Assembly (NCBI RefSeq): GCF_003967355.1
Contig: NZ_BIFH01000032.1
Coordinates: 138,632-202,631 of the forward strand
Reading direction: 5' to 3'
Source of the DNA: Embleya hyalina
GTDB lineage: Bacteria; Actinomycetota; Actinomycetes; Streptomycetales; Streptomycetaceae
Length of the DNA: 64,000 bases
Part shown: positions 24,319 through 36,662 of the stretch, piece by piece
How the letters are laid out: each line of letters begins with the position of its first letter
Position numbering within the stretch: position 1 is the first letter of the stretch
The notes under the pieces: generated by a model
Seen by the model: only the letters and a program-made list of their open reading frames with translations
Databases searched by the model: none
Told to the model about the DNA's origin: nothing
Translations under genes and position numbers: made by a program

Positions 24319-25800
24319 ATGCCCGCCGCACCCCCCGATCCCGAGACCAAAATCGACGGACCACTCCTGCGCCTGATGCTGGTCATGCTGCTCGGCGGCG
24401 TGATGGGCATCCTCGACACCACGATCGTCAACGTCGGCATCGACACCCTCGGCGCCCACTTCGACGCGCCGCTGGAAACCATCGAATGGGTGGCCACCGG
24501 CTACCTGTTGGCCCTCGCCGCGACCGTGCCGCTGGCCGGTTGGGCGGCCGGCCGCTTCGGCGGCAAAACCGTCTGGCTGACCGGCCTGATCGTCTTCCTG
24601 GTCGGCTCCGCACTGTCCGCGGTCGCCTGGAACGCGGGCAGCCTGATCGCCTTCCGGGTGATCCAGGGTGTCGGCGTCGGCGCCCTGGAGCCGACCCTGC
24701 TGACCATGCTGGCCGTCGCCGCCGGACCCAAGCGGGCCGGGAAGATGATCGGCATCGTCGGCGCGGTGGTCACCCTCGGCCCGATCCTGGGCCCGGTGCT
24801 CGGCGGCGTGCTGCTCGAACACGTCGACTGGCGCTGGATGTTCATCATCAACCTGCCGATCGGCCTGGTCGCCCTGGCACTGGCATACCGGCAGATCCCC
24901 GCCGACCCGCCGCGCGAGGGCGACCCGCCGCCGCTGGACGCCCGGGGCATCTCGCTGCTGTGCCCGGGATTCGCGGTGGTCGTCTACGGCCTCTCCCAGG
25001 CCGCGGGCGACAGCGGCTTCGGGGCACCGCGCGTGCTCGCGGCGCTGATCGCGGGCGTCGCGCTGATCGCCGGCTACGTCCTGCACGCGCTGCGCGTCGA
25101 GCACCCGCTGATCGACGTACGGCTGTTCCGGATCCGCGGCTTCGCCGGCGGCATCGGCGCGGTGTTCCTGACCGGCATCCTGCTCTTCTCGCTGCTGTTC
25201 CTGATCCCGCTCTACTACCAACTGGCCCGGGACCGCGGCGTGATGGCGGCCGGTCTGCTGCTGGTGCCGCAGGGGGTCGGGGTGTGGATCGGCATGCCGA
25301 TCGCGGGGCAGCTGTTCGACAAGGTCGGTGCCCGCGCGCTGATCCCGTTCGGCGGGGTGTTGGCCGCGCTGGGCATCCTGGGCTTCAGTACGGCCGACGG
25401 GGGCACCGACACCGCGCTCCTGGTGGGCTATTCGGTGGTGACGGGAGCCGGACTCGGCTTCGTCGGGGCGCCCGCGATGTCGTCGGTGTTCGGCTCGGTG
25501 GCGCCCGAGTCGGTGCCCAGCGCCACGGCGGCGGTGTACCTGAGCAACCAGATCGGCGGCACGCTCGGCATCGCGATCGCCGCGCTGGTCCTGCAGAACC
25601 GCTCCGAGGCGCACTCGGTCGTCCCGGCCTTCCAGGGCACGTTCGGCTACCTGATCGCGATCGCCCTGGTGGTCGGCGCGGTCGGCCTGGTGCTGCGCCG
25701 CGGTCCGGCGGCGGACGCGCCCGCGCCCGCGCCCGCGCTCGCCGAGGCGGCGGAGGACGGCGACGCGGCCCTGCCCGAACCCGCCCGCCAGGAAGCCTGA
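24319..25800 (+). CDS. MFS drug exporter, DHA2 (EmrB/QacA) family, 14 helices
   Basis: This 493-aa proton-coupled exporter would pump a small hydrophobic compound out of the cell. DHA2 motifs are visible: LDTTIVNVGID in helix 1, a WAAGRFGGKTVWLTGL loop (motif A), and antiporter motif C in GPILGPVLGGVLLEHVDWRW followed by MFIINLPIG. The frame continues upstream to a TTG at 24307, but the TTGGAGG there is the Shine-Dalgarno for the ATG at 24319 (5-nt spacing), which I therefore choose. A strong hairpin follows the stop. It is divergent from its probable repressor and may export the polyketide. Confidence 0.93.
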   Translation: MPAAPPDPETKIDGPLLRLMLVMLLGGVMGILDTTIVNVGIDTLGAHFDAPLETIEWVATGYLLALAATVPLAGWAAGRFGGKTVWLTGLIVFLVGSALSAVAWNAGSLIAFRVIQGVGVGALEPTLLTMLAVAAGPKRAGKMIGIVGAVVTLGPILGPVLGGVLLEHVDWRWMFIINLPIGLVALALAYRQIPADPPREGDPPPLDARGISLLCPGFAVVVYGLSQAAGDSGFGAPRVLAALIAGVALIAGYVLHALRVEHPLIDVRLFRIRGFAGGIGAVFLTGILLFSLLFLIPLYYQLARDRGVMAAGLLLVPQGVGVWIGMPIAGQLFDKVGARALIPFGGVLAALGILGFSTADGGTDTALLVGYSVVTGAGLGFVGAPAMSSVFGSVAPESVPSATAAVYLSNQIGGTLGIAIAALVLQNRSEAHSVVPAFQGTFGYLIAIALVVGAVGLVLRRGPAADAPAPAPALAEAAEDGDAALPEPARQEA

Positions 25801-25810
25801 TCGGCACCGG

Positions 25811-25851
25811 GCCCGGTTCGCGTCCCCACGATCCGGCGACGCGAACCGGGC
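25811..25851 (+). terminator. Hairpin terminator after the MFS exporter
   Basis: Perfect 14-bp arms (GCCCGGTTCGCGTC and its complement) around a 13-nt loop, starting 10 nt after the MFS stop. It lacks a U-tract. Confidence 0.75.
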
Positions 25852-26018
25852 TCAGGCTCCGGTCGGGCACCTCGATCCGGGGCCGGAGTGACGCGGGTCA
25901 CTCGCGCCGATCCGAAAATCTTTGCGAACGAACCGTGAGCACGCGCCGTTCGGCGTGTCCCAAGAGCACGCGACCCGACGGGAGTCGGTGCGTCTCGACG
26001 GTGCACACGGGGGATGCG

Positions 26019-27749
26019 ATGGGCGATGGCAGACAAGCGGAAGCGATCGTTCCGGTCGATCTGCGCAAGGAGCGCCCGGCGGCGGGCGCACGAACGGGCA
26101 CCGATGCGGGGCCGGCCGATCGGCCGGTCGAGCGATCCGGCGATCGGCCTGGAGACCGGGCCGGCGATCGGTCCCGCGATCGATCCGGCGATCGGTCCGG
26201 GAGCGCCACATCGTCGGACGAGCCGACCGGGCTGCTCTACCACCTGATCCGCTGGCCGATCCGTATCGTCGCACTGATCGTGCTGCTGCCCGCGCGCCTG
26301 GCCTGGGAACTGCTGAAGGTGGTCGGGCGCGGGGTCCGGGATTGGGTGCTGATCCCGGCGGGGCGACTGGCCGCGGTGATCGGGCGCGGGTTGCGGTGGT
26401 TGTTGTGGGACCGGCTCGTGGTACCGATCGCACACGCGCTCGCGGCCGTCGGCCGGGGGCTGCGCCGACTGGCCGTGAACGTGGTGTGGCGGGGGCTGAC
26501 GGCGGTCGCCCGCGTGGTGTGGCGTGGGCTGCGCTGGGCCATGGTCGGGCTGTGGCGCGGGGCGACGGCGGTCACCCGCGTGACCTGGCGCGGGCTGCGG
26601 TGGGTCCTGATCGGGCTGTGGCGTGGGCTGCGGCTGCTCGGGAACGGCCTTCGGCGTGGGCTGCGGCTGCTCGGGCGATACGGGATCGTGCTGCCGCTGC
26701 GGTGGGTTCGGGATGCGCTGGCCCGGCCCCTGGCCGGCGGGCTGGTCACGGCCGGTCGGTGGGTCGCCCATGCGCTCGGGCGCACGCTGTACTACCTCGC
26801 GGTGGTGCCCGGACGGTGGTCGTGGCGCGTGGCTCGGGTACTCGCACGGGGCTTCGGGCGGTGGCTGTACTACGTCCTGGTCGTACCGGCGAAGGCGCTG
26901 TGGCGTGGCCTCGTCGCCTGTGGTCGGGTCGCGTCGCGCGGGATGGGCGCCCTGCTTCGAGGTCTGGCGGTGGTGGGGCGCGGTGTCGTCTTCGTCCTTC
27001 GACGGCTGGTGCTGATCCCCGCCCGGTGGGTGTGGCGGGGCGCGGTGGTGGCGACCCGGGCCGTCGGATGGGGCCTGTACCACGGCCTGTTCGTCCCGGC
27101 GCGCCGGCTCGCCCGCGGCTTCCTGCGCGGACTGCGCGCGACCGGGCGCGGATTGCGTGTCGGGTTCGTCGTACTCGTGGCCCGGCCGGTGGCCTGGGCC
27201 TGGCGCCGGGGCGTCCGGCTCGGCCGCGCGACCGGCCGGGGTCTGTACCTCCTGACCGTGCCGCCGGCGCGATGGGCGGCCCGCAAGGTCGTGCTCCTGG
27301 TCCGCTTGCTCGGCCGGGGGCTGTACGTCCTCACCGTGCTCCCCGCGCGATGGGCCGGTCGCAAGGTCGTGCTCCTGGTCCGCCTGCTCGGCCGGGGGCT
27401 GTACGTCCTCACCGTGCTTCCCGCCCGGTGGGCCGGTCGCAAGGTCGTGCTCCTCGGCCGGGGGCTGCGGTTCGTGGTCGTGCGGCCCGCGCTGTGGGGC
27501 GGGCGGCGTGCCCGATCGGGTGCGCGGATGGCCGGTCGCGGACTGCGGGCGACGGTGGTGCGGCCGTCGGCGTGGGTGCGTCGGACGGTTCTGGCGCCCG
27601 CCGGTCGGGCCGCCCGGTACGGCTGGGGGCAGGGCGTCGCCCCGGTCCGGGCCGTGTTCCGCACCGTCTGGGAGCAGACCCGCCTGGCCGGCCGCGACGT
27701 ACGCCGCGCGCTGAGCTTCCGAAGGCGCGGCTCCTCCGACGACAGGTAG
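26019..27749 (+). CDS. Very basic repeat protein with a degenerate 26-residue amphipathic repeat, function unknown
   Basis: This 576-aa protein is not recognised. The first ~65 residues are polar with GDR-type tetrapeptide repeats (GDRPGDRAGDRSRDRSGDRS). The rest, from about residue 70, is an almost continuous series of Arg/Trp/Val/Leu-rich segments with hardly any acidic residues. Several start with G-R-x-L-Y, have a P-A-R-W-type turn at positions 11-14 and a basic-hydrophobic stretch, and are exactly 26 residues long. Two adjacent units near residues 406-457 differ at only a few positions and a third follows in part. The pattern suggests repeated amphipathic or re-entrant helices on an anionic membrane or nucleic acid. 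Third-position GC is high throughout, so it is genuine coding sequence. The ATG at 26019 has CGGGGGA 5 nt upstream. It stands alone between the MFS terminator and the GNAT gene. Confidence 0.75.
   Translation: MGDGRQAEAIVPVDLRKERPAAGARTGTDAGPADRPVERSGDRPGDRAGDRSRDRSGDRSGSATSSDEPTGLLYHLIRWPIRIVALIVLLPARLAWELLKVVGRGVRDWVLIPAGRLAAVIGRGLRWLLWDRLVVPIAHALAAVGRGLRRLAVNVVWRGLTAVARVVWRGLRWAMVGLWRGATAVTRVTWRGLRWVLIGLWRGLRLLGNGLRRGLRLLGRYGIVLPLRWVRDALARPLAGGLVTAGRWVAHALGRTLYYLAVVPGRWSWRVARVLARGFGRWLYYVLVVPAKALWRGLVACGRVASRGMGALLRGLAVVGRGVVFVLRRLVLIPARWVWRGAVVATRAVGWGLYHGLFVPARRLARGFLRGLRATGRGLRVGFVVLVARPVAWAWRRGVRLGRATGRGLYLLTVPPARWAARKVVLLVRLLGRGLYVLTVLPARWAGRKVVLLVRLLGRGLYVLTVLPARWAGRKVVLLGRGLRFVVVRPALWGGRRARSGARMAGRGLRATVVRPSAWVRRTVLAPAGRAARYGWGQGVAPVRAVFRTVWEQTRLAGRDVRRALSFRRRGSSDDR
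27234..27455 (+). repeat. 78-bp in-frame tandem repeat (nearly three copies)
   Basis: Unit 1 is 27234-27311, unit 2 is 27312-27389, and a partial third is 27390-27455. Units 2 and 3 are nearly identical in nucleotides (GGCCGGGGGCTGTACGTCCT at the head of each) and differ only at scattered third positions, so this end of the repeat protein expanded recently by duplication. Older 26-residue units further upstream are much more divergent. Confidence 0.85.
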
Positions 27750-30198: not shown

Positions 30199-31728
30199 AT
30201 GGACGACTGGCGTATCGACGTACCTACGAGCGGCAGCAAGCACCTGCCTCCGGATCCCGGGTACATCAAGGGACTCGCCAGTCAGGGCTATCGCTTCGAG
30301 GAGGCGGTGGCCGACCTCGTGGACAACTCGATCGACGCCGGCGCGTCCGAGGTCGTGGTGCATTTCCGGCGTACCGGCGACCTGTTGACCTCGCTGGTCG
30401 TGGTGGACAACGGACGCGGCATGACCGAGGCCGAGTTGGACACCGCGATGACCGTCGGCAAGCGGCGGGCGTACGGCGACACGGCTCTCGGCATGTTCGG
30501 CATGGGCCTGAAGGCCGCGTCCTTCAGCCACGCCGACAGCGTCACGGTGATCAGCCGGGCCAAGCGCGCCGGCACCGTCGGCCGGCGCTGGCGGACCGAG
30601 TCGGCGCAGGAGAGCTTCCAGTGCGACATCGTCGAGGTGGAGTTCGCCAAACGTTTCCTCGACCTGTACGACGAGTACGTGGTGTGGAACGGCACGGCGG
30701 TGCGGTGGGACGGCGTCCGTGACTTCCCGGCGCGCGGTGACGCCGGCCAGACCGACATCTACGTGACCAAGACGATGCGTTCGTTGGCCGATCACCTCGG
30801 TCTGCACCTGCACCGGTTCCTGGCCGACGGGCGGATCCGGATCACCATCGCGGTCTCCGGTACCGACGCCGAGGTGCCGCCGATGACCTGGCAGGTCCAG
30901 GCCGTGGACCCGTTCGGCTACGCCGTGTCCGGACTGCCGGGCTACCCGCGCGTGTTCACCACCACGCTGGACGGCGTCGGTCCGCTCACGCTGACCGCGC
31001 ACATCTGGACACCGCGCTCGAACGCCGAGCAATTCCGCCTGCCCGGCGGGATCCTGGCCCGTCAGGGCCTGTACGCGTACCGCCACGACCGGCTCGTCCA
31101 GGCCGGTGGCTGGTACGGCCTGCGCCAGAGCGAGCAGCACCTGTCGCTGGCCCGGGTCGCGTTCGACCTGCCGGCCGACTCCGAGCACGCGTTCGGGCTG
31201 ACCGTGAAGAAGGCCGAACTCCAGCCCGTACCGGGCTTCGTGGACGCGGTCGAGCGGGCCGTGGACGCCGACGGGCACAGCTTCCTCGACTACCTCAAGG
31301 ACGCCGAGGGCGCCTATCGGCAGGCCCGAACCACCACGCGAGAGCGCAAGGCGGTGCTGCCGCCCGGGAAGGGGTTCGCGCCGGAGCTGCGCGCGGCGAT
31401 CGAGGAGGAACTGCCTTTCGTCCCGGGCGAGGAGCCGATCGAGGTGCGCTGGGTGCCACTCGGCGGGGACGTGTTCTTCTCGATCGACCGGGACGAGCGC
31501 CGACTGCTGCTGAACAAGCAGTTCCGCGCCGCGCTGCTCGGCGGCCGACGCGGCGGGCTCAACGACGTGCCGGTGATCAAGACGCTGCTGTACCTGCTGA
31601 TGAACGAGGCGTTCACCGGCGAGCGCATCGGCCCCCGGGTCAAGGACAACCTCGACCTGTGGCAGTCGTTGCTGCTCACCGCGGTCAAGAGCGAGACGGC
31701 GAAGTACGGTTCGGAGGGCGGCGCGTGA
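30199..31728 (+). CDS. GHKL ATPase, MORC/MutL-like (HSP90-type ATPase fold), first gene of a restriction-like cassette
   Basis: This 509-aa protein carries the Bergerat ATP-binding fold. The N box is EAVADLVDNSIDAGA (about residue 36), the G1 box VVDNGRGM (about 69) and the G2 lid GMFGMGLKAASFS (about 98). A transducer-like region follows, with a Lys-containing FGLTVKKAEL segment (about 333) of the type that contacts the ATP gamma-phosphate. Such MutL/MORC-like ATPases act as ATP-gated DNA clamps and recur in predicted restriction systems with Z1 and DUF4420-type proteins, exactly the next two genes here. The ATG at 30199 is favoured over the GTG at 30193 because AGGGG lies 5 nt before it. 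The stop overlaps the next GTG (GTGA), indicating coupled translation. Confidence 0.88.
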   Translation: MDDWRIDVPTSGSKHLPPDPGYIKGLASQGYRFEEAVADLVDNSIDAGASEVVVHFRRTGDLLTSLVVVDNGRGMTEAELDTAMTVGKRRAYGDTALGMFGMGLKAASFSHADSVTVISRAKRAGTVGRRWRTESAQESFQCDIVEVEFAKRFLDLYDEYVVWNGTAVRWDGVRDFPARGDAGQTDIYVTKTMRSLADHLGLHLHRFLADGRIRITIAVSGTDAEVPPMTWQVQAVDPFGYAVSGLPGYPRVFTTTLDGVGPLTLTAHIWTPRSNAEQFRLPGGILARQGLYAYRHDRLVQAGGWYGLRQSEQHLSLARVAFDLPADSEHAFGLTVKKAELQPVPGFVDAVERAVDADGHSFLDYLKDAEGAYRQARTTTRERKAVLPPGKGFAPELRAAIEEELPFVPGEEPIEVRWVPLGGDVFFSIDRDERRLLLNKQFRAALLGGRRGGLNDVPVIKTLLYLLMNEAFTGERIGPRVKDNLDLWQSLLLTAVKSETAKYGSEGGA

Positions 31729-32783
31729 CCGGCGCGGACGGGCGGAGCCGACACCTGGGCTGCGAGGCGCTGCGCGACCATCTCGACAACGGGGCACCGA
31801 TGTTGATCCCGGTCGAGGGCGACCCGCCGCTGTACTGGCACCTGGAGGCGGGCGGTCGGCGACCCGCCCTGCGCATCCCGGTCCCGGCCGGCACGAAGGC
31901 ACCCCGGCTGGGCATGCAGGGCGTGCGGGCGGTGTGCGTCCTGGACGGCGGCGAGCAGTTCATGCATGTGTACACCGAACGGATCGAGCTGTTACGCGAG
32001 TTCCACATCGTGTGCTGCGAGATCGCGGATCGCGTGCAACTGGAGAGGACGGCGCCGGTCCAGGCGGTGCAAAGCACCGTGCTGGCGTGGCGCAAGCTGC
32101 TGGCCCGAGGACGACGCATGTCCCTGGAGGCGGAGATCGGCCTGTTCGGCGAACTGCTCACGCTGATCGGCCTGGCCGACACCCGAGGATGGCATGCGGC
32201 CGTCGACGCCTGGCAACACCCGGACTGCGCGGACCACGACTTCACCGTCGGGCCCTACGACATCGAGGTCAAGACCGTCACCGGACGCGCCCGCGTGCAC
32301 ACGGTCCACGGGCTCGGCCAACTCGCGCCCCACTCGGACCGACCATTGTGGTTCGTCTCGCACATCCTGGACGAGAGCGACACCGGCCGGTCGGTGCTCG
32401 GCCTGATCGAGGGCATTCGCTCGACGATCCGGGTGCACGCGCCGGGCGTGCTGGACGACTTCGACACCCGACTCCAGCTGGGGACCGACAACGAGGCCGC
32501 GATCCCCCGCGAGCGTCGGTGGACGTCGGCCGGGGACCCGTTGGCTTTTCCCGTCGACATCGGATTTCCCCGGCTGACCGGGAGCATCCTCGCGCCGCTG
32601 CCGGAGGCACTCGCACTGCGCATCGTCGACATCGACTACCGCATCGACGTCGCCGACCTGGTCCCGTCGATCGCGCCGGCCCCGGACGGAATCGACCACG
32701 CCGTCGACCTCGCCCGGGTGCTCCCACCCGACGTCGCGTCGGACCTGTCCGAGTCGTACCAGTCCAAGGACGGCGCCTTGTGA
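31725..32783 (+). CDS. PD-(D/E)XK family protein, DUF4420-type, second gene of the GHKL-Z1 cassette
   Basis: The 352-aa protein shows a nuclease-like core: a helix with acidic residues (SLEAEIGLFGEL, about 133-144), then Asp172 in HDF and E181-V-K183 in YDIEVKT, which is the D...ExK catalytic pattern of the PD-(D/E)XK fold. A glutamine/histidine segment follows (VHTVHGLGQLAPHSD). Relatives annotated as PD-(D/E)XK motif proteins occur beside Z1 ATPases and MORC-like ATPases, so it is the probable DNA-cleaving part. It starts with a GTG overlapping the previous stop and ends overlapping the next GTG. Codon 90 is TTA (31992-31994), the only such codon seen in the cassette, making its expression potentially bldA-dependent. 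Confidence 0.8.
   Translation: MTGADGRSRHLGCEALRDHLDNGAPMLIPVEGDPPLYWHLEAGGRRPALRIPVPAGTKAPRLGMQGVRAVCVLDGGEQFMHVYTERIELLREFHIVCCEIADRVQLERTAPVQAVQSTVLAWRKLLARGRRMSLEAEIGLFGELLTLIGLADTRGWHAAVDAWQHPDCADHDFTVGPYDIEVKTVTGRARVHTVHGLGQLAPHSDRPLWFVSHILDESDTGRSVLGLIEGIRSTIRVHAPGVLDDFDTRLQLGTDNEAAIPRERRWTSAGDPLAFPVDIGFPRLTGSILAPLPEALALRIVDIDYRIDVADLVPSIAPAPDGIDHAVDLARVLPPDVASDLSESYQSKDGAL
31992..31994 (+). other. TTA (bldA-dependent) leucine codon in the PD-(D/E)XK gene
   Basis: In-frame TTA at codon 90 (GAG CTG TTA CGC). TTA is the rarest codon in these genomes and its tRNA is made mainly late in development, so the middle gene of the cassette may be translated only in older mycelium. Confidence 0.8.
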
Positions 32784-35701
32784 CCGACGAACTCGCACTT
32801 CTCGCGCTGCACCGCGCGGCGTTCGGCGGGATGTCCGCCGGCCCCAGGAATCTGGCCAAGGCGCTCGCCTACCATGCCGACGAGCACCCCGGCCCGCTGC
32901 CCGACCTCGGCGAGACCGCATTGCGTCGGCGACTGCACCACGCGCACCCGGACGACGCGCTGCTCATCCTGTGGCGCGATCGACTCAGCCGCTGGGACTT
33001 CGCCGACGGCGACATCCCGCCCAACACCGACGCCCGCCGCGCGTCGACCTACGACGCCCTCGGCCTGGAGCGGGTCACACGTGACCTCCTGGATCGACGC
33101 GCGCCGTTCGCACGCGCCTCGGGTGCGGTGGTGATCACCGACGAGGGCTGGGATCCCTGGTACACGGAGGAAGTCGCCCGACACCACAGCCACTACTGGG
33201 ACGCCTACCGGAACACCCTGCTCGGCAAACGATGGGCACCCGAGGCAGTCGCCGCGCTGGACCGAAACACCACCCGAGTCGTGGAACGCCTGGCCGATCC
33301 CACCTGCGAACAGCCCTACCAAGCCAAGGGGTTGGTGGTCGGCTACGTACAAAGCGGCAAGACCGCCAACTTCACCGGCGTCGCCGCGAAGGCGATCGAC
33401 GCGGGATACCGCATGGTCATCGTGCTCACCGGCACCATCGAGGCGCTGCGCGCGCAGACCCAGCGCCGCCTGGACATGGAACTCGTCGGCGTCGAGAACA
33501 TCTACTACGGCCAGGACCCGGACTCGGGCACCCTCGCCTTCCGCGACTACGACTATCTCGACGACCGGGACCGGCTGGACGGCAGGTTCCTGCGCCACGG
33601 AGCACTGCCGTCCCGACTCGGCGGGTTCGACATCGTGCGGCTGACCCGGCATCAGGACGACTATCAGGCGCTGCGTCAGGGGCTCAGCGCGCTGGAGTTC
33701 GAGAAGGCGGACCGGTTCACGCCGCTGTACGCACCGGAGAACCTGCATCGCAGTTCGGCCCGACTGATGGTGGTCAAGAAGAACGCGTCGGTGCTGAAGA
33801 AGCTGGTCAAGGACCTGGCCCGGATCAAGACCGAGCGCGGTGAGATCCCCGCGCTGATCATCGACGACGAGTCCGATCAGGCGTCGGTCAACACCTCCGA
33901 CCCGAAGAAGTGGGCGCAGGACCAGGTCCAGCGCACGGCGATCAACGGGATCATCTCGGAACTGCTCGGCATGCTGCCGCGCGCCCAGTACATCGGTTAC
34001 ACCGCGACCCCGTTCGCGAACGTGTTCATCGATCCGGCCGACTCCGAGGACATCTTCCCGAAGGACTTCGTCATCTCGCTGGACCGCCCGGAAGGTTACA
34101 TGGGCGTCGCCGACTTCCACGACATCGACTCCACGATCCCCTCGGCCGAGCGCACGGTGGCGAACTCGGCCGGGCTCGCGCACGTACGCTCGGTGCGGCC
34201 GGCGCATGACGACGACGACAGCGATCTGCGCGCCGCGATCGACATGTTCGTGCTGACCGGCGCGATCAAGCTGTTCCGCGAGGACCACGGGCTGGGCGCG
34301 GACCACTTCCGGCACCACACGATGCTCGTGCACGAATCGGTGCGCACCCACGTGCACCGGGACCAGGCCGAGCTGATCAACGGGATCTGGCGTCGTGCGG
34401 GGTATCTCGGCGCGGGGGCACAAAAGCGCCTGCGCGCGCTGTACGACGAGGACGTGTACCCGGTCAGCGAGGCGCACGCGGCGGGTGCCTCCATCCCCGA
34501 CTCGTTCGCCGACATCGCCCCCTACATCGGCATCGCGGCGATGCGGATCGAGGACTCGAACGGCAGTCCCGTCGTGGTGGTCAACGGCGACAAGGAGATC
34601 GAGCAGCGCGCCGCCGACTTCGATCGCGACAAGGTCTGGCGGATCCTGGTCGGCGGTGCCAAGCTCTCGCGCGGCTTCACCATCGAGGGCCTGACCGTCT
34701 CCTACTACCGCCGCAAGACGCTGACGGCGGACACGCTCATGCAGATGGGCCGCTGGTTCGGCTTCCGCAAGAACTACCGGGATCTGGTCCGGCTCTACAT
34801 CGGCCGCGACGAGGGTGGTCGCAACGGGGACCTGTACGAGGCGTTCGAGGCGATCTGCCGGGACGAGGAGGAGTTCCGCGACCAGCTCCGGTTGTACGCC
34901 GAACTCGTGGACGGCGCACCGCAGGTGACACCGGCTCAGATTCCGCCCCTGGTCACCCAGCGACTGCCGTGGCTCAAGCCGACGGCGCGCAACAAGATGT
35001 TCAACGCGGAACTCGTGGAGACCCGATCGCCGGGCCGCTGGGTGGAGCGTTCGGCCTATCCGAGCAAACCGGCGGAGCTGCGCCACAATGTGGAGCGGTT
35101 CGAGCCGGTGATCCGGTCGCTGGCGGCGGAGCGCACCGAACTGGCCTATCCCGTGGAGGATCGGCTGCTGCGCTTCCCCGCCTACATCGGGCGCATCGCG
35201 CACGCTCCGCTGTTGTCGGTGCTGCGCGAGCTGCGCTGGGCCGAACCCGCCCAGTTCCGGCCGGATCTGGCCTATCTGGAGAACCCGGAGATCGCCGCGA
35301 AGATCGACGACTGGGTGGTGATCGCCCCGCAGTTGCAGAGCCCCAATCTCGACCCCGTGACACTGCACGGCTTCGGTCCGCTCGACGTGGTGAGTCGACG
35401 TCGACGCGAGGGGGGACTGTTCGACCAGGTCAGCTTCGGTACCCATCGATTCGCGGCGCGGCGGATCGTCGGCACCGACACCTCGATCGGCGACCGGGTC
35501 GCGGACGGCCTGGCCGGACCCCGGCGGGGTTGCCTGCTGGTCTACCCGACCATGGAGCCGGAGAAGAACGACCTCGTGATGGCGTTCGCGCTCGTGCCTC
35601 CGGTCACCGCGGTCGGTCGGGATCGGCGGCTCGTGGCCTTTCGGGCCAAGGACTCCTCCCGGGGCGCGGCCGCGATCGTGGCGGCGCCGGCGGCGGTGTG
35701 A
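32780..35701 (+). CDS. Z1-domain superfamily II ATPase/helicase-like protein, third gene of the cassette
   Basis: The 973-aa protein is a SF2-type motor. Walker A is GYVQSGKTANF (about residues 188-198), motif II IIDDESDQ (about 360), motif III GYTATPFANVF (about 405), and the Z1 C-terminal motor lobe shows GGAKLSRGFTIEGL (about 624) and QMGRWFGFR (about 654, motif VI). Z1 proteins are known mainly from predicted restriction or defence operons, where they are thought to translocate on DNA with a MORC-like ATPase and a nuclease. The GTG start overlaps the previous stop by 4 nt, and a 19-bp perfect hairpin ends the transcript. The length is typical. No methyltransferase or Vsr gene accompanies it. 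Confidence 0.9.
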   Translation: MTDELALLALHRAAFGGMSAGPRNLAKALAYHADEHPGPLPDLGETALRRRLHHAHPDDALLILWRDRLSRWDFADGDIPPNTDARRASTYDALGLERVTRDLLDRRAPFARASGAVVITDEGWDPWYTEEVARHHSHYWDAYRNTLLGKRWAPEAVAALDRNTTRVVERLADPTCEQPYQAKGLVVGYVQSGKTANFTGVAAKAIDAGYRMVIVLTGTIEALRAQTQRRLDMELVGVENIYYGQDPDSGTLAFRDYDYLDDRDRLDGRFLRHGALPSRLGGFDIVRLTRHQDDYQALRQGLSALEFEKADRFTPLYAPENLHRSSARLMVVKKNASVLKKLVKDLARIKTERGEIPALIIDDESDQASVNTSDPKKWAQDQVQRTAINGIISELLGMLPRAQYIGYTATPFANVFIDPADSEDIFPKDFVISLDRPEGYMGVADFHDIDSTIPSAERTVANSAGLAHVRSVRPAHDDDDSDLRAAIDMFVLTGAIKLFREDHGLGADHFRHHTMLVHESVRTHVHRDQAELINGIWRRAGYLGAGAQKRLRALYDEDVYPVSEAHAAGASIPDSFADIAPYIGIAAMRIEDSNGSPVVVVNGDKEIEQRAADFDRDKVWRILVGGAKLSRGFTIEGLTVSYYRRKTLTADTLMQMGRWFGFRKNYRDLVRLYIGRDEGGRNGDLYEAFEAICRDEEEFRDQLRLYAELVDGAPQVTPAQIPPLVTQRLPWLKPTARNKMFNAELVETRSPGRWVERSAYPSKPAELRHNVERFEPVIRSLAAERTELAYPVEDRLLRFPAYIGRIAHAPLLSVLRELRWAEPAQFRPDLAYLENPEIAAKIDDWVVIAPQLQSPNLDPVTLHGFGPLDVVSRRRREGGLFDQVSFGTHRFAARRIVGTDTSIGDRVADGLAGPRRGCLLVYPTMEPEKNDLVMAFALVPPVTAVGRDRRLVAFRAKDSSRGAAAIVAAPAAV

Positions 35702-35704
35702 CGC

Positions 35705-35752
35705 CGTCGGGCGGGGCGGCGTCGTCGTGCGATGACGCCGCCCCGCCCGACG
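35705..35752 (+). terminator. Strong hairpin ending the GHKL-Z1 cassette
   Basis: Perfect 19-bp arms (left arm 35705-35723, right arm 35734-35752) around a 10-nt loop, beginning 4 nt after the Z1 stop codon. It cleanly bounds the three-gene unit on the right. Confidence 0.85.
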
Positions 35753-35760
35753 AGGCGGTG

Positions 35761-36275: not shown

Positions 36276-36662
36276 GTGCCGACGTCCACACCCGGCCACG
36301 TCGTGACCACCGTGCACAGCACCCAGACCGTGACCGTCGAGATCGACGGCGAGGTGGTGGCCCGGTCCACCCGCCCCGTCGTGCTCTACGAGACGGGTCT
36401 GCCCATCCGCTACTACCTGCCGCCGGACGACGTCGACCTGACCCGTTTCGAGCCCACCGACACGCACACCACGTGTCCGTTCAAGGGTGAGGCGTCCTAC
36501 TGGACCTACCTGGGCGGCGCCGACTCCGCCCCGCGCCCCGACGTGGCCTGGGAGTACCCCGAGCCCATCGCGTCGGTGCCCGACATCGCCGGCCACCTGT
36601 GCTTCTACGACTCGGTCGCGCGCGTCACGATAGAAGGCGAACCCCCGGCTCCGCCCGCCTGA
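36276..36662 (+). CDS. DUF427 family protein
   Basis: A 128-aa protein with the typical DUF427 beta-barrel pattern: VTVEIDGEVVARSTRPVVLYETGLPIRYYLP near the N-terminus, THTTCPFKGEASYW in the middle and VAWEYPEPIASVPDIAGHLCFYDS near the end. The family is widespread in actinobacteria and its function is not established. The GTG at 36276 was chosen because GGAGGAG lies 5 nt upstream. Its last 38 nt overlap the convergent ACMS-decarboxylase gene, so the two transcripts could interfere. Confidence 0.88.
   Translation: MPTSTPGHVVTTVHSTQTVTVEIDGEVVARSTRPVVLYETGLPIRYYLPPDDVDLTRFEPTDTHTTCPFKGEASYWTYLGGADSAPRPDVAWEYPEPIASVPDIAGHLCFYDSVARVTIEGEPPAPPA

Follow-up and report, generated by a model that had tools for sequence, protein, structure and literature searches.

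Can a restriction-type gene cassette work without a methylase of its own? The question is raised by three overlapping genes, for a MORC-type GHKL ATPase, a DUF4420 protein and an ATPase with a Z1 domain, in 64,000 nucleotides of Embleya hyalina DNA (the whole stretch analysed, called the window below). A sequence-only reading of the window had inferred that this core acts without a linked methylase, and that it may recognise something other than unmethylated host sites or be an abortive or clamp-type defence. We examined the cassette itself, the neighbourhoods of its relatives and the rest of the genome.

Three overlapping genes and their protein families

The cassette spans C32:168824-174332 in contig coordinates (Table 1). 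The reading frame of gene 1 is open from GTG 30193; in our reading, ATG 30199 suits the N-termini of the homologues better. The start codon of gene 2 (GTG 31725) overlaps the stop codon of gene 1, and that of gene 3 (GTG 32780) the stop codon of gene 2, which gives GTGA overlaps at 31725-31728 and 32780-32783, with coordinates, frames and overlaps as previously described. After gene 3, 25 base pairs interrupted by a single 2-base bulge form a hairpin of -57.8 kcal/mol (z -7.8), a value reached by none of 200 shuffles, with no T-run behind it. The strong closing hairpin noted earlier is present and begins directly after the stop; its former dimensions, 19 bp at 4 nt after the stop, were close. 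Judged from frames and substitution rates, the three genes are intact, overlapping and under purifying selection, with dN/dS among four genus genomes of 0.09–0.19 for gene 1, 0.19–0.27 for gene 2 and 0.09–0.17 for gene 3. Elsewhere in the window (24486-27749), an ORF for a putative protein holds, in its latter half, repeats rich in R/W/G (WRGLRW-like) and hydrophobic stretches.

Table 1. Features of the cassette and of the methylase and Vsr genes in the same genome. Bare positions refer to the window; C32, C34 and C14 are contigs.
Feature	Position	Strand	Detail
Gene 1: MORC-type GHKL ATPase, MzaB-like	30199..31728	+	509 aa from ATG 30199; 511 aa from GTG 30193
MORC family motif GhXhhpXXRhl = GLYAYRHDRLV	31066..31098	+	residues 292-302 from GTG 30193
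Gene 2: DUF4420 predicted PD-(D/E)XK nuclease, MzaD-like	31725..32783	+	352 aa
Predicted catalytic set E143, D172, E181-x-K183	32151..32273	+	alignment of homologues
Gene 3: SF2 ATPase with Z1 domain, MzaC-like	32780..35701	+	973 aa
Walker A VQSGKT of gene 3	33347..33364	+	residues 190-195
Gene 3 motifs DDESD and TATPFAN		+	residues 362-366 and 408-414, downstream of Walker A
Z1 motif DThhQXuRhFG = DTLMQMGRWFG	34730..34762	+	residues 651-661
Hairpin directly 3' of last stop	35702..35757	+	folding and shuffles
Divergent tract vs sister species G395	31950..33300		most of DUF4420 gene and start of gene 3
Displaced Vsr and C5-methylase pair	C32:208963-210528	same orientation as cassette	34.6 kb downstream of cassette, about 6 kb past window
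PF00145 matches, own genome	C32:209440-210504; C34:55351-56436; C32:80980-82215 (two pieces); fragment on C14		
Vsr matches, own genome	C32:209017-209211; C32:80343-80528		

Pfam searches bore out the three family calls already made, MORC-type ATPase, DUF4420 nuclease and Z1 ATPase, with bit scores of 86 for HATPase_c_3 in gene 1 (cut-off 25), 141 for DUF4420 (PF14390) in gene 2 (cut-off 27) and 181 for Z1 (PF10593) in gene 3 (cut-off 25). In gene 1, the N-box reads ADLVDNSIDA. Among 127 close GHKL ORFs, pooled from two overlapping locus sets, 124 have Asp as the acidic residue of this box (window:30313-30315, residue 41 from the GTG); MutL has Glu at the corresponding position. With Asp there, the gene 1 ATPase may be slow, or switch-like. 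Eukaryotic MORC ATPases are chromatin compactors and of interest as such. A sequence search of solved structures matched gene 1 weakly to MORC2 and MutL and returned none for genes 2 and 3. The MORC family motif lies after the GHKL domain, is present in 125 of the 127 pooled ORFs and follows the pattern printed in PMC2292703, in the part accessible to us.

Gene 3 carries the Walker A sequence and the DDESD and TATPFAN motifs, each found in 45/45 aligned Z1 homologues. The exact Z1 pattern, taken from the same accessible text of PMC2292703, occurred in 30 of these 45, with Q655 and G657-G661 invariant in all. The structure model of this protein (pLDDT 83.9) resembled DEAD-box helicases and the HsdR motor of EcoR124I (E about 1e-6), at TM-scores that were low over the whole length. 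In gene 2, the residues D172, E181 and K183, singled out beforehand as catalytic, were invariant in 42/42 aligned DUF4420 proteins, as was E143. The gene 2 model was confident (pLDDT 88.1); Foldseek gave no match at E <= 0.001 either to the PDB or to the viral models of BFVD, where the best hit was a bunyavirus protein (E 5.5e-3), and Pfam gave no PLD match. Because a confident model found no match at this threshold, the PD-(D/E)XK fold of the middle protein is a prediction from motif and family: the earlier assignment agrees with the E-D-ExK motif and the DUF4420 family and drew no backing from the structure comparison.

By its motifs, the cassette is of a known kind, the operons of MORC, Z1 helicase and E-D-ExK genes of Iyer, Abhiman and Aravind 2008 (PMC2292703), and both motif patterns printed there fit, which upholds the link to that work drawn earlier. 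The accessible text describes them as MORC type-3 predicted restriction operons, in which a methylase and a Vsr are frequent and not required. The MORC motif ATPase, the SF2 helicase with the Z1 motif and a gene with the E-D-ExK set of the predicted restriction-endonuclease fold are shared; here, in contrast, methylase and Vsr lie outside the operon, and in some of the relatives DUF4420 is missing and a NaeI- or NgoMIV-family gene is present.

The cassette also shares MzaB-, MzaD- and MzaC-like proteins with MZA (mzaABCDE), an anti-phage system reportedly described by Gao in 2020. PADLOC and NCBIfam models scored 116–123 bits for MzaB in gene 1, 34–57 for MzaD in gene 2 and 225–287 for MzaC in gene 3. 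We rejected the cassette as MZA proper, since its NCBIfam scores were 123 of the 850 bits needed (MzaB), 57 of 420 (MzaD) and 287 of 1500 (MzaC). No AIPR (MzaE) gene was found at the locus, the one AIPR match of the genome being on C34. A second, more MZA-like set lies there at C34:45456-56460 (L046:7457-18461), with two GHKL genes, Z1, DUF4420, AIPR and a C5 methylase (MzaC 417 bits of 1500 needed, MzaE 365 of 1050), and near it an Mrr-type nuclease gene (L046:4411-5391). Literature matches listed for MZA by name were unrelated by title. A system predicted by natural-language processing (NLP) in PMC9523054, as far as its accessible text goes, consists of Z1, PD-(D/E)XK and C5 methylase genes in types I and II and is related to mzaABCDE; its 'DUF4220' we take to be DUF4420. 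The Z1 and PD-(D/E)XK core is shared and its type I goes with repair endonucleases, whereas the methylase, its third core gene, is unlinked here. The only Z1-protein biochemistry met in our literature search was that of PMC4267653, whose accessible part describes ATP-dependent cleavage by CglI and NgoAVII with the Z1 protein N.CglI. These systems likewise pair an SF2 and Z1 ATPase (the N protein) with a separate nuclease and include a DNA methyltransferase, but the nuclease there, R.CglI, is of the PLD type and carries a B3 domain, in place of the DUF4420 protein and MORC ATPase found here. A Corynebacterium island with Z1, DUF4420 and Dcm-like genes together appears in the accessible part of PMC5379612.

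Methylase and Vsr genes near relatives and in the host genome

We counted neighbours in two locus sets that share species and are not independent. The first comprised 56 loci, window included, of which 45 had 7.9 kb or more on both sides; the second comprised the best 80 of 579 named loci, 56 of them with at least 9.5 kb on both sides. Loci ending at contig or fetched-stretch ends (11/56 and 24/80, respectively) were left out of full-flank counts. Seeds for the profile HMMs came from L033 and L037, and the profiles were then refined by iteration over the very loci that were counted. Pfam named the seeds for methylase, NaeI, DUF6339 and one NgoMIV seed, and the Vsr seed was recognised by eye; family models bore out the Vsr call in nine genomes and for the gene of this genome.

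Among the 56 full-flank relatives from the best 80 of 579, a C5 methylase lay within 10 kb in 48, a Vsr in 46 and both in 45. For those bearing DUF4420, the figures were 26/30, 25/30 and 24/30, which leaves 8/56 and 4/30 with no methylase within that distance. In the first set, methylase and Vsr were each present at 38 of the 45 loci. The other seven were the window, the sister-species loci L063 and L064, and L034, L040, L083 and L099. In L040, a Vsr-methylase pair sits about 9 kb from Z1, just past the end of the stretch examined; in L038, out of the count for its short flanks, the distance is about 11 kb. Three loci were true exceptions: L034 (G182), with methylases only at least 0.5 Mb away and no Vsr; L083 (G654), with a pair 0.86 Mb away that adjoins another MZA-like set; and L099 (G534), a two-gene form whose genome has no PF00145 match and a lone Vsr on another contig. 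As sampled here from sequence neighbourhoods, most members of the family are accompanied by a C5 methylase and by Vsr.

Two observations stand beside these counts. In two-gene loci such as L154, L158 and L162, where no DUF4420, NaeI or NgoMIV was seen, a Vsr directly follows Z1 and might itself be the effector. In L143:5876-12132 (G279), HEPN_Swt1/DUF499 and DUF1156 genes, perhaps another defence system, stand between the three-gene cassette and its methylase-Vsr pair.

As stated at the outset, the window itself contains no C5 methylase and no Vsr: all five PF00145 matches and both Vsr matches of the genome fall outside it. The genome search for an unlinked Dcm-type methylase with Vsr, suggested with that statement, did turn up such a pair on the same contig. 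We took the neighbours of the displaced pair for a molybdate-transporter operon on one side and a TPR gene on the other; no restriction gene was recognised beside it, and the next gene, the one neighbour scanned with Pfam, gave no match. Its methylase, P0004, matched TIGR00675 at 186 bits and has a dN/dS of 0.11–0.15. Two methylases that accompany cassettes with DUF4420, those of L091 and L104, are 74% and 72% identical to it, and nine further cassette-linked ones 43–48%. The sister species G395 has the orthologous pair 35 kb downstream of its cassette (methylase 98% identical) and G394 has it 49 kb downstream in reverse orientation (95%). G396 has the cassette and no such pair in its assembly; because the genes flanking its cassette end at contig ends, it cannot tell on pair or empty site. 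Arithmetic on two such pairs in 12.05 Mb puts the chance of finding one within 35 kb near 1%, and the three species share ancestry, so the pair near the cassette counts as one event, not three.

We infer the tie between displaced pair and cassette from the methylase family, from position and from the fact that no NaeI or NgoMIV partner was detected. With 48 of 56 relatives methylase-bearing and this pair 34.6 kb downstream, the idea that the core acts without a linked methylase is weakened, and a picture in which homologues carry a methylase that is displaced here holds largely, not fully. We regard it as improbable that the cassette needs no methylase at all and responds to phage DNA structure, replication intermediates or modified bases, or serves as an abortive or clamp-type defence. 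All four genus genomes keep the cassette with no linked methylase in the stretches read, and this agrees with such a role, as do the empty window, the four methylase-free DUF4420 loci and the genome of G534. Set against these are the methylases and Vsr genes beside most DUF4420 relatives, the keeping of the pair 35–49 kb away in three of the four genus genomes and the lack of an AIPR gene at the locus.

The explanation we prefer, at slightly better than an even chance, is an ATP-dependent restriction module whose host is spared by the displaced C5 methylase. The Z1 protein would be the motor on DNA through which recognition of the site is passed on to the nuclease, as has been proposed for N.CglI, the MORC protein an ATP-gated DNA clamp, and the DUF4420 protein would cut DNA. 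Host DNA would be protected by the displaced methylase, probably at GCCGGC, and Vsr would repair the T:G mismatches left by deamination. If so, a 'methylase-less' restriction cassette can be an artefact of the window read, with the likely partner tens of kilobases off, and the idea, predicted long ago, that restriction is driven by MORC and Z1 ATPases in bacteria can be put to a concrete test with a named site and a named methylase.

GCCGGC cutters and the nuclease position

The candidate site comes from the relatives of the displaced methylase. In the tree, it fell in a 100/100 clade of 12, made up of two cassette-linked methylases, seven from cassette-free genomes and three from genus members. 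Nine genomes outside the genus held relatives at 73–77% identity, two with the cassette and seven without close-clade Z1, so methylases of the displaced type have other partners elsewhere. Six of the seven cassette-free genomes had a NaeI-family gene (three) or an NgoMIV-cluster gene (five) nearby, and in the seventh the stretch starts at a contig end; the NgoMIV family was Pfam-confirmed in two of two genes tested, of the five. NaeI cuts GCCGGC, the same sequence as NgoMIV. Since close relatives of the methylase thus lie near genes of two GCCGGC-cutter families, we predict a mark at this site. Cleavage by NgoMIV at G|CCGGC is given in PMC4081073, whose accessible part prints the NaeI site string differently from GCCGGC and describes DNA looping by NaeI and its link to topoisomerases.

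These neighbours can also be taken to mean that the displaced pair is a solitary methylation unit, a remnant of NaeI/NgoMIV type, and that the cassette is spared by another methylase, at C32:80151-82236 or on C34, or by none. We think this unlikely. Genome profile searches for restriction partners covered NaeI and NgoMIV and found neither in this genome, G394 or G395; the NgoMIV absence is the weaker evidence, because its model matched in 0 of 14 control genomes (it scored 80–89 bits on genes of L133 and L134), and G396 does have a NaeI match. The methylase relatives are mostly without the cassette, as a solitary unit would have it, yet their clade has the two cassette-linked members. As for the other methylases, the pair at C32:80151-82236, 87 kb upstream, is a candidate, its methylase and Vsr each being 58% identical to the pair linked to the three-gene cassette of L039, while the one on C34 adjoins the separate MZA-like set. 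A solitary C5 methylase has a precedent in Caulobacter, where the accessible text of PMC12907096 reports one acting at YGCCGGCR with an unlinked Vsr-like partner.

We looked for GCCGGC depletion in 112,771 bases of own DNA (the window and three stretches of C34 and C32) and found none, with 265 sites seen and 269 expected (ratio 0.98), a result neutral on the methylation reading. In the same DNA, CTCGAG was strongly depleted (14 seen, 61 expected), and AGGCCT and AGCGCT were depleted to a lesser extent.

The nuclease position of the cassette itself appears to vary among relatives. DUF4420 was present in about half of the loci, 41/80 in the best 80 of 579 and 27/56 in the first set. Of the 26 full-flank loci without it (best 80 of 579), six had a NaeI-family gene, three an NgoMIV-family gene and seven either one within 10 kb; the remaining 19 had neither at that distance. 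In the first set, 12 of 56 loci had a NaeI-family gene, nine of them with the gene directly downstream of Z1 on the same strand; one of these nine, L067, has DUF4420 too, and the NaeI assignment in L037 was confirmed by Pfam at 392 bits. The nucleases appear interchangeable; some of them are related to NaeI and NgoMIV, two biochemically well-characterised enzymes. They may also have come to lie beside MORC and Z1 by chance, through clustering in defence islands. As a tentative and on balance doubtful generalisation, MORC-Z1 would be an all-purpose chassis, driven by ATP, whose nuclease slot can take DUF4420 or a NaeI- or NgoMIV-family enzyme and which serves GCCGGC-type C5 methylation and Vsr repair, and the genus methylase would have drifted out of the operon while still functionally tied to it. 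NaeI, a classic restriction family, would then work with a MORC motor complex in these loci. Literature searches gave no report of NaeI or NgoMIV together with MORC and Z1 among the matches listed, and what may be new here is the interchangeability of the nuclease.

We also asked whether the Z1 N-terminus co-varies with nuclease type and rejected this: at core identities of 0.62–0.68, comparing loci with DUF4420 to those lacking it gave an N-terminal identity of 0.389, close to the 0.403 within the first group and the 0.398 within the second.

Distribution and a divergent tract

Close-clade Z1 (E <= 2.8e-125) occurred in 13/394 genomes of a class sample, own included, in which 34/394 had any Z1 match at 1e-30; in a family sample, 49/394 genomes, own included, had Z1 at 1e-100. 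Within the genus, all four genomes examined carry the cassette, the others at 85–97% identity. Its retention there under purifying selection would suit a domesticated housekeeping role in DNA repair or chromosome maintenance, not defence. We consider such a role very improbable, given the patchy occurrence elsewhere, the restriction-type partners in relatives and, over the nuclease gene, a tract that is divergent and may have been exchanged.

That tract (Table 1) is 79–95% identical to G395 per 150-base bin, with eight of nine bins at 79–91%; the bins around it are at 91–100%, except one 88% bin at 36600, and the locus is mostly at 95–97%. Likewise, dS against G395 was 0.355 for the DUF4420 gene vs 0.090 for gene 1 and 0.161 for gene 3. 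The divergence at 31950-33300 fits a swap of the nuclease gene together with the first part of gene 3, by which the nuclease or the specificity may have been replaced, or faster divergence there.

Outside Actinomycetota, a close-clade three-gene cassette with Vsr and methylase was seen in Hyphomicrobium (L209). In the Streptomyces-like genomes of L033, L034, L037, L133 and L139, cassettes, or methylases with NaeI/NgoMIV genes, lie near a similar MRPDTPA-holding gene, which perhaps marks an integration hot spot.
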